Shown one piece after another: positions 53,726-58,905 of a stretch of DNA of 64,000 nucleotides. The translations under genes were made by a program, and so were the position numbers. The stretch comes from Balneolaceae bacterium (lineage in GTDB: Bacteria; Bacteroidota; Rhodothermia; Balneolales; Balneolaceae), in contig JAEPQE010000003.1 of NCBI GenBank assembly GCA_017640665.1, forward strand, positions 372,001 to 436,000. Direction: 5' to 3'. A model generated the notes under the pieces. The model searched no databases and was not told the origin of the DNA. It saw only the letters and a list, made by a program, of their open reading frames with translations. Every line of letters begins with the position of its first letter. Position 1 is the stretch's first letter.

Positions 53726-54025
53726 ATGAAGAAGAAATCACTTTGTGTGTATATAGTTACAAATAAGAATCATACGGTTCTCTACACAGGTGTAACGAGC
53801 GATTTAGTCAATAGAGTAATTCAACATAAGAACAAGCGGGTTAAGGGGTTTACAGCAAGATATAATGTTGATAAGCTAGTTTACTATGAAGAGGTTGGCG
53901 ATCCTGAGTTCGCCATAAAAAGGGAAAAACAAATTAAAGCAGGTTCCAGACAGAAAAAGATCGATTTGATCAATTCTATTAATTCAGATTGGAAGGATTT
54001 GTTTGAGGATATTATTCCACATTAA
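53726..54025 (+). CDS. Stand-alone GIY-YIG nuclease-family protein
   Basis: 99 residues, the usual length of the YhbQ/UPF0213-like group. The first strand is CVYIVTNKNHTVL, the second half of the signature LYTGVTSDLVNRVIQHK with the conserved Arg, and the catalytic Glu lies in FAIKREKQIKAG. It is a predicted single-domain endonuclease or nicking enzyme; cellular roles of stand-alone members are poorly known. A family 2 palindromic repeat ends 23 bp before it and another begins 11 bp after it, with a further copy behind. The layout resembles a REP-associated enzyme gene (inference). Confidence 0.9.
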   Translation: MKKKSLCVYIVTNKNHTVLYTGVTSDLVNRVIQHKNKRVKGFTARYNVDKLVYYEEVGDPEFAIKREKQIKAGSRQKKIDLINSINSDWKDLFEDIIPH

Positions 54026-54036
54026 AATAAAAAATG

Positions 54037-54186
54037 GTCTTTGCGAGGAGTATCTGACTAATAATTAAGGCAGGTACAAATTCGACGAAGCAATCTCATG
54101 GAATAGGTTTAGGAGCGTTGATAGGGAGATCACGTCGTCGAGGGTTATTGAAATCGTAGTTCAGTTTACGGCTCCTCGTGATGACC
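54037..54186 (+). repeat. Dispersed nested-palindrome repeat, family 2, copy D (downstream flank of GIY-YIG gene)
   Basis: About 150 bp. Outer arms GTCTTTGCGAGGAG / CTCCTCGTGATGAC; inner arms CGACGAAGCAATCTC / GAGATCACGTCGTCG. It begins 11 bp after the GIY-YIG stop and is followed 14 bp later by copy E in the same direction. Confidence 0.8.
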
Positions 54187-54200
54187 GCCTATTTTTTAAT

Positions 54201-54352
54201 TGTCATTGCGAGAAGCTTTGGTTTTAAATCAGGTCTGGAAAGAAATCGACGAAACAATCTCGTGGAATAGGTTTGGGAGCGTTGATAGGGAGATCACGTC
54301 GTCGAGGGTTGTCGAAATCGTAGTTCAATTTACGGGCTCCTCGTGATGACGG
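54201..54352 (+). repeat. Dispersed nested-palindrome repeat, family 2, copy E
   Basis: About 152 bp, complete. The left arm varies (TGTCATTGCGAGAAGC) in the same way as copy F at 61863, including the following TTTGGTTTTAAATCAGGTCT, so copies E and F are the closest pair. Confidence 0.8.
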
Positions 54353-54366
54353 TCTTTTGGAACTCG

Positions 54367-54469: not shown

Positions 54470-54558
54470 TACTAACGACCCGGTGTTTAAGCGGCGAGTC
54501 TGGTTTTAGTTATAAAGTTCCGAACCCTAAACGAGTCCGCTTGAAACGCTTGTTATAC
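54470..54558 (-). other. attC-like integron recombination site
   Basis: On the minus strand the site reads GTATAAC (R'' box), AAGCGTTT spacer, CAAGCGGA (L''), a central part of about 40 bases, CCGCTTA (L'), a spacer of about ten bases, then GTTAGTA (R'). AAGCGG and CCGCTT pair, GTTA and TAAC pair, and an unpaired A follows the L'' arm, as in attC sites. At 89 bp it is within the known range. It begins 17 bp after the stop of the 54576-55166 gene and in the same direction, which is exactly the cassette arrangement. No integrase gene is in the window. Confidence 0.65.
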
Positions 54559-54575
54559 CTCTTTTCTTTGAGATC

Positions 54576-55166
54576 TTAACTTACTGTTAGCATCTTTTCA
54601 TGAGCAAGTATCCATTTATTATCTACGTTTTCTAAATAATAAAACCAAGTACTACCACACAATGGGCCACAATTTATACTTACGAAAAGTAGCGCCTTAT
54701 CTTTCTGGGTATTTAAACCCACCCTTGAAAAGCCTAGAATAGATTTAACGTTTGTGAATCTTTCCTCAAATATTAACCAAGAAAAAGAGTTTTTAAAAAT
54801 TTCATCAATTTCATTGGTCACTACTATTTGATACTTAAGTTCAGTCTCAAAATGATCTTGAATAAAGTGTTTTGAGCTGTTTTTTGTAATAAAATCATTT
54901 ATAAGCTCCTTCGATAATTCAAACCCCCATTCCTTTTGTAGCATAGTAATGCGTTCAATGTTCAGTGAAAGATCTTTCCGAATAGAAGTTGAATCTAAAA
55001 TTGCTATGCTAACACTGTCTATTTCAACTTCATCACTTTCAGTAATGTGGTTAAAGAAGTCATTATAAACAGCATATTCGTTAGGAGGAATATTAGATTC
55101 TATTTTATTACAGTTGAGTAGAAATGCAATTGTAAAGAAAAATATTACTGCAAATTTAAATCTCAT
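54576..55166 (-). CDS. Hypothetical lipoprotein, probable integron-cassette gene
   Basis: 196 residues. The signal ends FLLNC (Cys19). The mature protein is Ile/Glu/Lys-rich with no known domain; a C-terminal segment with paired Cys (SINCGPLCGSTWFYYLENV, then NKWILAHEKML) resembles a beta-sheet that other small Bacteroidota proteins use. The composition is more AT-rich than its neighbours. It is the only gene between the attC-like site and the GTATAAC/hairpin element upstream, and has a very short leader (about 15 bp from GTTATAC to the ATG), both typical of gene cassettes. Function unknown. Confidence 0.7.
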   Translation of the reverse strand: MRFKFAVIFFFTIAFLLNCNKIESNIPPNEYAVYNDFFNHITESDEVEIDSVSIAILDSTSIRKDLSLNIERITMLQKEWGFELSKELINDFITKNSSKHFIQDHFETELKYQIVVTNEIDEIFKNSFSWLIFEERFTNVKSILGFSRVGLNTQKDKALLFVSINCGPLCGSTWFYYLENVDNKWILAHEKMLTVS

Positions 55167-55181
55167 TTAGAAGCTTAAGAG

Positions 55182-55240
55182 GTATAACATATTATTAAGC
55201 GAACAAGGGGACTTGGATATTGTTCGGATAATATTTTCAA
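55182..55240. other. Possible degenerate second recombination site upstream of cassette gene
   Basis: GTATAAC at 55182-55188 repeats, inverted, the box at the other end of the cassette. It is followed by nested arms ATATTAT/ATAATAT and CGAACAA/TTGTTCG, which fold into a 14-pair hairpin. The far R box is not recognisable, so this is at best a half or decayed site. Confidence 0.3.
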
Positions 55241-55332
55241 ACGTATCTTCAGTGCCTGTAAGCCTAGGGTTTAGGATTTATTGCGAACGCAAGTTCGTAT
55301 AAAATCCCTAAAAGGACAAAACGCGAACTATT

Positions 55333-58300
55333 TTAATCCAATCTCAGCCAGTTGTCTTGTCGTACCAGATCGGGTCGGGTTCCATAGGGATCAATACTTA
55401 CGTATTGGGGAAGGGAGTCAACCCGGAACGTTAGCGTTTGTGTTCCGCTGGTAATCTTCCTTGGTTTTAGTTGCAAAATCTGTTCTTTGGAAGCTCGGGA
55501 TGGATGAGTAGTAAATAGTCCCACAGGAACGGGCTCATTCATGGAAACCGGAGTTTCTATTCCGTTCACCGATTCAAATTTAGTAGCATCAATGGTCATA
55601 GTAATTTCATAGTCGCCATTTTCGAGTTCAGTGTAATCTACTTCTTCAACCGAAAGGTCATAGGTGACGATTTTCTTAAACCAGTCATCAATAAGTGGTT
55701 GGTATTCCTCAGGAGTTACCGCGTACACTTCGTTCAAAAACTCGGGAGAAGTTACCGTTGCATCGATTTCGTTTTTATGTCGTTGCACCAAAGTTTTTAA
55801 AATCTGGTTTAATGCTTCTTCGCCAATGAGTTCTTTAAGGGCTACCATCACTATATAACTTTTGCCATAGAGCATATAGCGTTCTCCCTGCTCCAGGTAC
55901 AGAGGTTGTTCGGGGGTGGAGGCATAAGAGCGACCATTAAAATAGGCTCGATTGGCTGTTTCACTCAGTTGAAACAAAGAAGCCATTCCATAGTGTTTTT
56001 CCATCACTACAGCTTCGGTGTATTTGGCAAAGCCTTCCACAAAAATAGCACCTCCGCTTACATTCTGCGTGCTGAGCATGTGTCCCCACCATTGGTGTGC
56101 TACTTCGTGAATGGTGCGTTTTGCAACCAGGCTGAATTCCTCAGGATCGCGTTCATCCACTAGATACAAATTGTCTTCCACCATGCTGATCATTCCTGAA
56201 GCGGCATACCCACCAAATCTCCAGAAAGAGGGAATTTCTGCTATTCGTAGGTGATCAAGATGGTATTCACCAAATTCCCTCTGAGCATAATCCAGTGTGT
56301 GTTTCATGCTGTTCATGATGGTGGAATTATTGAAGGCGTGTTCCGGATGGAAGTAATGCTCCAGGATTATCCCTTTATACTCTTCCTGCTCAACTTTATA
56401 CACCCCGGAATGATAACTGATGGCAGGAGCCACTGGTTTTTTAGATTTAAACCGATAATAATTTCGGTTGTTTTCGGTCCATTCTTCTTCAAGTCGGCCC
56501 ACGGTGACACCTGTCTGAGAAACAGGTACTGATAGTATCGTTTCGAAATCAACCCGACCAAAACCGGATTCCATGACCTCAAAATCAGCAGCTGAAGGTT
56601 GTTCAAATGGTTTTTCTGGAAGACCACGTTGATTCCGTTCGGTATTGTTTCGGATTTCAAGACTTTGAGTATACCCGAGGAACGGACTGAAATCACGGAG
56701 GTGGATAAAACTTCCATTATCTGTCAGGTCATTTCCGGATTGCAGGCTTCTATGACTTCCATCTGCCGAGAATTCAAGTCTGACGGTATCTCCGGGTTGT
56801 ACCGGCACATCGAATTGAAATTCAAAAATTCCATGTATGGGATCTGTATTCACTAATGTAGCTTGTTCGAGCTTTATGTTGGTGATCGATTCCTTCTCAA
56901 TAATCAGTGCCCGGGTTACTACCGAATTGCTTTTATTCATAAGTGTGTAAACGGCATCAACGTTGTAGCTTCTTTCATCAGGATAAAGTGCTACATCCGT
57001 GAAAATGGAAACCGGGTACAACCAACTTACCTCATCATAATGTTTGTATTTTTTTTCATAGTCCGCCTGTCGGTCGAGAAATTCATCCGATGAAAGATAT
57101 TCAACCTCGATATTGGTTTTGTAAAAGATCATCCCCGAAGTACTAAGGAAAGCCAATCCCAGAACAGCAAGAGCGACCAGCTTTTTGAGTGACCAGTTCC
57201 TAAATACCTGTTTGCTAAGAATCACAAAGCTTTCAATAATACCCCTTCGCCAACCATGAAGAGCGATGACCGACAGAATGAATCCTAATAAAAGCCAGTG
57301 TATAGAGAAGAGATGAAAAGCTGAGGCGTTGTTGCTCAGTCCGGACATATCAGAGAAAGTAACAGTTGGCATAGATCCAATTCTTAGCAGTGGATGTTCA
57401 ATACCCAGCGTACCTGACAAAGGAGTTGCAAAGACAACAACAATCAATCCGGTTATCGCCATCCCGAGGTATTTGCCAGGGGAGAACGATTGGATAAACA
57501 GAGCAACCAGAATATAGAAAGCAAGTGGAGCACCGTGGAAATAATACAGCGAGGCATAGGTGCTCAGGTCGAATTTAGTGTAGTCCAGCACAATCTGGAA
57601 AATCATAGCGATCACGATTTCGAGTGTGACAAACAGAAACGGAATGCACATCAACACTGAAACCTTAGACCAAAAGAAAGATGCATTGGAAGCAGGGGTT
57701 GCATCAAGGATAAGATGCATATTTTCACTTCGTTCTTTCCAGCCCCATTCTCCACTAAAGAAAACGATTATCATCACACCAAAAATAAAGATGGCTGTGC
57801 TGTTTAATCCCGCCAACAAAGCAGTTACCGGATACAGACTTTCAGAATAGCTGCCGCCATCAACTAGTCTTGAGTAAAATTCGGAGCACATCACAAAAAC
57901 GATAAAAACCATCATCACCTGAAAAGGGAGGCTTTTAAATAACTGCTTAATGCCCATTCTACTCTGGGAAAAGAAAGCATACCAAAAGGTTCTTTGAGTG
58001 AAGGGAGGGAGGTCCAACGACTGGTAACTACTAACCGTAGCAATATCCTTTAGTTGTATTTTTTCTAATGAAGTTTTTTGCTTTTTTCGCTGCAAGACCC
58101 GGAATGAGAAAAAATGATACGTCGCTCCAAGAATAGCGAATGTTATCCCAATCCAGAGTAAACGATTGTACAGGAAATTCCCTGTTAGTGATACTAAGGT
58201 ACTGTTTTTCTGGAAGGGAGTAAGGAACTGACTTTGCTCCATGAAAGCCGAAATACCAAAAGGATCGCCCAGTGCAGCAATCGTCATATTATCAGTGTGA

Positions 58301-58905
58301 CTTGGGGTTGAGCCTGCCAGCATCGGGGAATCGAAATAAAAAGAACACACAAAGTAGAGTACATAGGCAAACAGCGCCGAAGCATAGACCGACATTCTGT
58401 TTTTAGTCAGGAGTCCCACTGAAAAAATGAAGCCCGAGCAAATAAAGACATTCGGAAGTACGAAAACCAACCAGTTCCAGAAATAGTGAAACAGGTTGAA
58501 AGGAGCCAGACGATCGGGGTCAAGATTCATTAGCTGACTCCCGGTAATCATTCCGACTATTAAGGGGCTAACTGCAAGCAGACTGAAGATGAAAACCCCG
58601 GAAAAACGACTGATAAAGAACTGATATTTACGAACACCGGTACTGAAAATGATTTCCTGCATCCGATGAGTGCTGTCGCGCAAAACGCCGTTGATCACAA
58701 AAAACATAATCGCGAAAACAGCTCCTAGAGTGAAAATGGATGTATAATAGCTGATCTGATAAGGTGCGTTGAAGTTCACCAGGTCAGGAGCGAAGGCTTG
58801 TCCACTGACCTGAAGTCCGGATATAAAGAAAAGCAGCATGGCTGCGGGAAGTGCCCAGAGTTTCCTTTGGTAAATAAGTTCAAATTTTAAAAGCGCAACG
58901 ATCAT
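55333..58905 (-). CDS. ABC-2 permease fused to M1-family peptidase domain
   Basis: 1190 residues. The N-terminal half (about 1-600) holds some twelve hydrophobic segments of the ABC-2 permease type. The C-terminal half is an M1 metallopeptidase domain. The zinc motif is H933-E934-xx-H937 (TIHEVAHQWWGH), and the third ligand Glu lies about 20 residues on in FVEGFAKYTE, one residue further than in classic M1 enzymes but as in other fused members. This fusion is a recognised Bacteroidota architecture of unknown substrate. Its start overlaps the stop of the ATPase gene by 4 bp (ATGA). A LytS/LytR pair is divergent upstream. Probably processes or exports a peptide. Confidence 0.9.
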   Translation of the reverse strand: MIVALLKFELIYQRKLWALPAAMLLFFISGLQVSGQAFAPDLVNFNAPYQISYYTSIFTLGAVFAIMFFVINGVLRDSTHRMQEIIFSTGVRKYQFFISRFSGVFIFSLLAVSPLIVGMITGSQLMNLDPDRLAPFNLFHYFWNWLVFVLPNVFICSGFIFSVGLLTKNRMSVYASALFAYVLYFVCSFYFDSPMLAGSTPSHTDNMTIAALGDPFGISAFMEQSQFLTPFQKNSTLVSLTGNFLYNRLLWIGITFAILGATYHFFSFRVLQRKKQKTSLEKIQLKDIATVSSYQSLDLPPFTQRTFWYAFFSQSRMGIKQLFKSLPFQVMMVFIVFVMCSEFYSRLVDGGSYSESLYPVTALLAGLNSTAIFIFGVMIIVFFSGEWGWKERSENMHLILDATPASNASFFWSKVSVLMCIPFLFVTLEIVIAMIFQIVLDYTKFDLSTYASLYYFHGAPLAFYILVALFIQSFSPGKYLGMAITGLIVVVFATPLSGTLGIEHPLLRIGSMPTVTFSDMSGLSNNASAFHLFSIHWLLLGFILSVIALHGWRRGIIESFVILSKQVFRNWSLKKLVALAVLGLAFLSTSGMIFYKTNIEVEYLSSDEFLDRQADYEKKYKHYDEVSWLYPVSIFTDVALYPDERSYNVDAVYTLMNKSNSVVTRALIIEKESITNIKLEQATLVNTDPIHGIFEFQFDVPVQPGDTVRLEFSADGSHRSLQSGNDLTDNGSFIHLRDFSPFLGYTQSLEIRNNTERNQRGLPEKPFEQPSAADFEVMESGFGRVDFETILSVPVSQTGVTVGRLEEEWTENNRNYYRFKSKKPVAPAISYHSGVYKVEQEEYKGIILEHYFHPEHAFNNSTIMNSMKHTLDYAQREFGEYHLDHLRIAEIPSFWRFGGYAASGMISMVEDNLYLVDERDPEEFSLVAKRTIHEVAHQWWGHMLSTQNVSGGAIFVEGFAKYTEAVVMEKHYGMASLFQLSETANRAYFNGRSYASTPEQPLYLEQGERYMLYGKSYIVMVALKELIGEEALNQILKTLVQRHKNEIDATVTSPEFLNEVYAVTPEEYQPLIDDWFKKIVTYDLSVEEVDYTELENGDYEITMTIDATKFESVNGIETPVSMNEPVPVGLFTTHPSRASKEQILQLKPRKITSGTQTLTFRVDSLPQYVSIDPYGTRPDLVRQDNWLRLD

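Follow-up and report, generated by a model that had tools for sequence, protein, structure and literature searches.

A single integron gene cassette at a putative attI site without an adjoining integrase in a Balneolaceae bacterium

The locus described here raises the question of how one gene cassette came to its place in a genome in which no integron integrase gene (intI) was found, and what kind of site it was inserted into. In the window, i.e. the whole 64-kb stretch of DNA that was analysed, a first-pass annotation had noted an attC-like site behind a lipoprotein gene and had taken both for a lone, CALIN-like cassette, either captured in trans or left from a lost integron. Our preferred reading, with a probability of about 0.83, is that the element represents an integron platform with one cassette but no integrase, the cassette having been inserted at an attI site by IntI-type recombination.

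The attC-like site behind the minus-strand lipoprotein gene could be confirmed in all its parts: all boxes are present, R'' follows the stop codon of the gene at a distance of 17 bp, the site spans 89 bp, and the extrahelical A is in place.

54470-54558, minus strand: attC recombination site (R''-L''-loop-L'-R'), 89 bp, matched by covariance model R1
54552-54558, minus strand: R'' box GTATAAC, read from the sequence and aligned to model R1
54470-54476, minus strand: R' box GTTAGTA, likewise read and aligned; its TTAGTA part is flank and lies outside the cassette

The inner boxes are L'' (TCAAGCGG), which is followed by the extrahelical A, and L' (CCGCTTA); in the alignment to the model, two bases (C and A) are extrahelical. 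Model R1 was built from 38 attC sites of arrays adjoining intI in relatives, with the window excluded from training. In the stem of this training set 95.4% of the cells are paired and 11 pairs carry changes in both partners, a level which none of 500 shuffles attained. This lineage-specific model matched positions 54470-54558 with 72.7 bits (E 1.5e-15), a mid-range value for attC sites of arrays, and it found no second attC on either strand of the window, even at E<=10. BLAST gave 80-92% identity between the site and 89-bp attC sites from arrays of relatives. One stem pair is broken in the alignment to R1, where the L' side has A in place of G, and a strict attC regular expression missed the site because of its L'-R' spacer of 12 nt. 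The DNA folding energy of the 91-nt strand alone was uninformative, being no better than that of shuffles (recombinogenic plus strand, z +0.40). Since Rfam gave no match in the window and the folding energy is unremarkable, the attC call rests on sequence and covariation, by which 54470-54558 is a real attC site.

The gene in front of this site forms a cassette together with it, and the limits of the cassette can be drawn to the base.

54476-55187, minus strand: integron gene cassette, 712 bp, from the TT of the cassette start (55187) to the G of R' (54476), with G^TT at both ends
54576-55166, minus strand: cassette gene (open reading frame) for a putative lipoprotein of 196 amino acids, its start codon 21 bp into the cassette
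55177-55188, minus strand: junction box GTTATACCTCTT between attI and cassette, of the R' type, repeating 54552-54563 perfectly in inverted orientation; recombination falls between G at 55188 and T at 55187

The cassette consists of a 21-bp leader, the lipoprotein gene and the 89-bp attC. Integron cassettes are excised as circles, and the first bases of a cassette should be complementary to its own R''. Here, GTTATACCTCTT at the cassette start and AAGAGGTATAAC are complementary over 12 nt, so that an excised circle would restore the attC, and this complementarity sets the limits at 54476 and 55187. Counted from GTT, the perfect match between start and R'' averaged 9.7 nt over 99 cassettes of arrays in relatives, in comparison to 4.6 nt in mispaired controls, and only 0.35% of the mispaired controls reached 12 nt. 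A second GTATAAC box had been reported just upstream of the gene. The box (within 55177-55188) and the short leader do exist, but the strand has to be corrected: GTATAAC is its plus-strand reading, and on the strand of the gene it reads GTTATAC, i.e. an R'-type box, oriented as a cassette start requires. Judged by its sequence, 54476-55187 is a genuine integron gene cassette.

The lipoprotein itself matched no Pfam or NCBIfam family, and its structure model is weak (mean pLDDT 59.5). Two good matches were obtained among 92 genomes of the family, with 54% identity in G018 and 47% in G014, genomes of a Balneolaceae bacterium and a Rhodothermia bacterium; both homologues are cassette genes which lie between attC sites of arrays. 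A scan of the genome collection with the lipoprotein yielded the same two homologues only (Balneolaceae bacterium UBA3186 and Rhodothermia bacterium 7_bin.32).

On the other side of the cassette, the sequence in front of the gene has the features of an attI site.

55188-55302, minus strand: putative attI-type site, about 115 bp, ending GTTCGCTTAATAATATG; matches the attI of relatives, no intI beyond
55274-55307, no strand assigned: inverted repeat GGATTTATTGCGAACGCAAGTTCGTATAAAATCC with CGAAC-N4-GTTCG, the outer box pair of attI; counterpart upstream of intI in G005 and G042
55333-58905, minus strand: gene (open reading frame) for a fusion of ABC-2 permease and M1 peptidase (Pfam Peptidase_M1), its stop codon 30 bp from the attI edge

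A search of the family with the flank only (55170-55335) found 86% identity over 50 bp in genome G099 (E 2.5e-10), directly upstream of an N-terminal intI fragment of 76 amino acids (61-71% identity). Beside the intact intI of G005 and G042, attI ends with ATTCGTATAATATTATG^TTA and ATTCGTCTAATAATATG^TTA, respectively, in the window with GTTCGCTTAATAATATG^TTATACC. Between the attI end and intI of both genomes lies a similar inverted repeat with CGAAC boxes. Because of the match in G099 and because the end and the inverted repeat are common with the attI of G005 and G042, the flank is regarded as a putative attI-type site, which the counts of the attI end pattern given below also support. Architecture and insertion point are as in intI-linked attI, with the strongest agreement over the last 50 bp; the site is one of the more divergent ones, in that good alignment to other attI sites is confined to about 50 bp and its outer boxes were identified from their architecture. 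The repeat at 55274-55307 is possibly a box for the integrase or a LexA-type factor. Short matches of the flank in five further genomes (G086, G103, G006, G048 and G007) look like chance and were rejected, as they are without the attI end.

The end of the M1-peptidase gene falls on that side of attI where intI would be expected. An ortholog of this gene occurs only in G019 (73% identity), the sole syntenic relative; in G019 no attI-like sequence follows the M1 gene, and the intergenic region downstream of it is not alignable to the window. The fusion protein comprises 1190 amino acids, its gene adjoins an ABC ATPase gene, and four similar stretches are found in the genome.

Beyond the attC end of the cassette, a repeat with CGACGAAGCAATCTC in it occurs twice, in direct orientation, at 54080-54360. 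The genome holds 27 copies of it (up to 2 mismatches) in comparison to 5 for the reversed pattern, and further copies lie close by (C3 421166-421344 and 433909-434090). A small gene for a GIY-YIG nuclease (53726-54025, Pfam 6.8e-16) adjoins both repeat and cassette, and a small open reading frame of GIY-YIG-like appearance was also seen at the cassette locus L104 (10161-10451).

No integrase had been reported nearby, and none was found in the rest of the genome either. With the profile TIGR02249 (cut-off 265 bits) no intI was detected over the cut-off in this genome (G000), the best match reaching 82 bits; the assembly consists of 9 contigs and is 98.8% complete, and an intI in a gap is still conceivable. 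Matches below the threshold were also obtained in 14 of 14 control genomes and are probably ordinary tyrosine recombinases. Neither of two genus mates (G001, G002) has an intI over the TIGR02249 cut-off, and loci L191-L193 contain no intI fragment. Within the family, 50 of 92 genomes possess an intI over the cut-off. Among genomes at least 95% complete, attC sites are present in 41 of 42 with and in 11 of 15 without intI; four genomes without intI over the cut-off (G039, G020, G093 and G048) have 17-25 attC sites each.

The cassette is not a lone one, as had been assumed, since the genome has three other cassette loci.

C1, 1015015-1017971: attC locus with three strong and two weak sites
C3, 577524: attC locus separate from that of the window
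C4, 35926-37547: attC locus with three sites; one of its cassettes encodes a ParE-like toxin (Pfam E 2e-7)

Altogether, about 10 attC sites at four loci and three attI-type sites were counted in the genome, the genus mates having one and three attC sites. The gene of the ParE-like toxin lies at L105 8027-8317, in the C4 cluster. Two cassette clusters of the same genome (L103 and L105) open with the right half of an attC only, not with attI, as though the array had been severed at this point; the half sites are found upstream of the first cassette gene at about L103 10820-10870 and L105 9870-9930.

From these features the following course of events is proposed. The attI-type site 55188-55302 lies directly behind the M1-peptidase gene, and the 712-bp cassette would have been inserted at ATG^TTA of this site by IntI-type recombination, with strand transfer at G^TT, as the junctions suggest. 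Before insertion the site, without 54476-55187, would read ...TAATAATATG followed directly by TTAGTAAGCC. The inserting IntI would by now have disappeared from the genome. The cassette would be frozen, because it has no intI beside it and the search of the remaining genome revealed none, and it could move only if an integrase arrived in trans. A putative promoter, either inside attI or ahead of it, probably drives expression of the lipoprotein.

The usual description of an integron has a single intI and, next to it, a single attI. Here, several attI-type sites of a genome hold cassettes with no integrase adjoining. The attI end pattern TTCGNNTAATANTATGTTA, with up to one mismatch, gave 79 matches in 89 genomes in comparison to about 8 for the reversed control (3 and 0, respectively, in the own genome). 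Forty attI-type loci, nearly all of them exact matches to the pattern, were examined: intI or a fragment of it adjoined the site at 5 of the 40, and none at the other 35, of which 25 are followed by attC on the same strand within 3 kb. Behind 31 of 41 sites a gene starts within 60 bp. Orphan and intI-linked attI mostly have about 100-146 bp in common up to the insertion point and differ in their outer flanks; at two orphan sites the homology runs somewhat further, into the intI leader. Since some flanks of orphan sites are common to different species (L164/L176, L165/L183 and L167/L175), such sites can persist over speciation. Genome G019 contains four closely similar attI copies (L195, L196, L197 and L198), two beside a truncated intI and one with no intI found upstream; the remaining copy has a different tyrosine recombinase on its cassette side.

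Two readings compete with insertion at an attI site. The elements could be no integron feature at all, i.e. an unrelated hairpin or terminator behind the lipoprotein gene that resembles attC by chance. The folding energy, no better than that of shuffles, would agree with this, but it is refuted by the model score in the range of array sites, the identity of 80-92% to array attC, the cassette-end signature and the homologues of the gene in arrays, and is considered extremely improbable. Less improbable, though still unlikely, is an insertion in trans into ordinary genomic sequence, at an attG-type or other secondary site. Such insertions have been described (Loot et al. 2024, as cited in PMC12901181 and PMC11023631), and a single cassette without intI is in agreement with them. 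However, attG targets differ from classical att sites, whereas the flank here is of the attI type, with repeated CGAAC boxes and an end common with intI-linked attI. Capture in trans at a random site, as proposed in the first-pass annotation, is disfavoured for the same reason.

If insertion at attI is accepted, we infer one of two origins for the site, loss of a former intI or arrival as an attI already without one; the two are weighted similarly, each with somewhat less than an even chance. A complete integron may have decayed: intI, to the right of attI where the M1-peptidase gene now ends, would have been deleted together with the leader and possibly the remainder of the array, so that attI and one cassette were left. 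This origin agrees with the order intI-attI-cassettes in the relatives bearing intI, with the intermediate in G099, where attI stands beside the 76-aa intI remnant, with L169, which keeps an intI-type leader without intI, and with the attC sites still present in 25 intI-negative genomes of the family. On the other hand, the window has neither an intI remnant nor a clear intI leader, the deletion would need an endpoint in the stretch from the peptidase stop codon to the outer box of attI, and a former intI need not be assumed, as most of the examined attI-type sites in the family are without intI. The earlier suggestion that the cassette was left from a lost integron fits the locus, but an orphan attI platform which never stood beside intI fits equally. 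In that case attI would have been copied to this place as a discrete unit without intI and filled in trans by an integrase later lost from the lineage. Beside the 35 intI-free loci, 25 of them with downstream attC, this is suggested by G057, in which an orphan attI and the intI-linked one show 97% identity over -131..+2 but have unrelated flanks, and by the window's own genome, in which two of the three attI-type sites are 79% alike over about 97 bp. Against it stands that we know of no mechanism for the copying of attI, and that a conserved functional attI core between diverged flanks could mimic a discrete unit, the case with 97% identity excepted.

It may be speculated, with less confidence than is given to either origin, that attI of the Balneolaceae is a dispersed intI-free unit of about 100-146 bp, and that one integrase serves many platforms in trans across the chromosome, each with a single cassette or a small number of them (a "distributed integron"); the window would then show such a platform in a lineage since without integrase. 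Should attI multiply independently of intI, landing sites for single cassettes would become available all over the chromosome, and some "orphan" cassettes elsewhere could have the same explanation. Integrons are common but little described in Balneolaceae. In the open-access literature searched, no paper mentioning both integrons and Balneolaceae and no description of the frequency of intI-free attI sites within one family were found, and Salinibacter ruber M1 is the sole complete integron named for Bacteroidetes themselves in the IntegronFinder survey of 2022 (PMC9024848).

Among known systems, the single attC lacking an integrase (SALIN, PMC12690207) is closest by definition. A CALIN in IntegronFinder 2 needs two attC sites, although single ones may be real (PMC9024848); loci L103 and L105 would qualify. 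As the locus in the window has exactly one attC and no integron integrase, "CALIN-like" gives way to SALIN (PMC12690207), which the element formally is, here still joined to attI. It resembles both classes in its attC-bearing cassette in a genome in which no intI was found, and differs in the attI-type site at its head, since the definitions are without attI (PMC12690207, PMC9024848). In Treponema phagedenis, too, intI was lost while attC sites and cassettes remain; that study centred on attC, whereas the window also has an attI-type site (PMC3607928). With attG insertions (Loot et al. 2024, as cited in PMC12901181) the element has in common that single cassettes occur outside integrons; according to this citation their targets are non-classical, whereas the target in the window is attI-like. 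A CALIN headed by its own attI was described in the Shewanella prophage M16-3; this attI ends ...CTAATAAAATGTT, much like the ...TAATAATATGTT of the window (PMC9892861). That prophage also contains a complete integron with the same attI (PMC9892861), whereas no intI was found in the genome of the window, and dispersed attI-type sites are numerous in its family. The chromosomal integrons of the Balneolaceae (G005, G014, G018, G057 and others) have the same attC family, a similar attI end, the same cassette-end signature and homologous cassette genes; they carry intI beside attI, whereas the locus in the window holds its cassette at an attI-type site without it.
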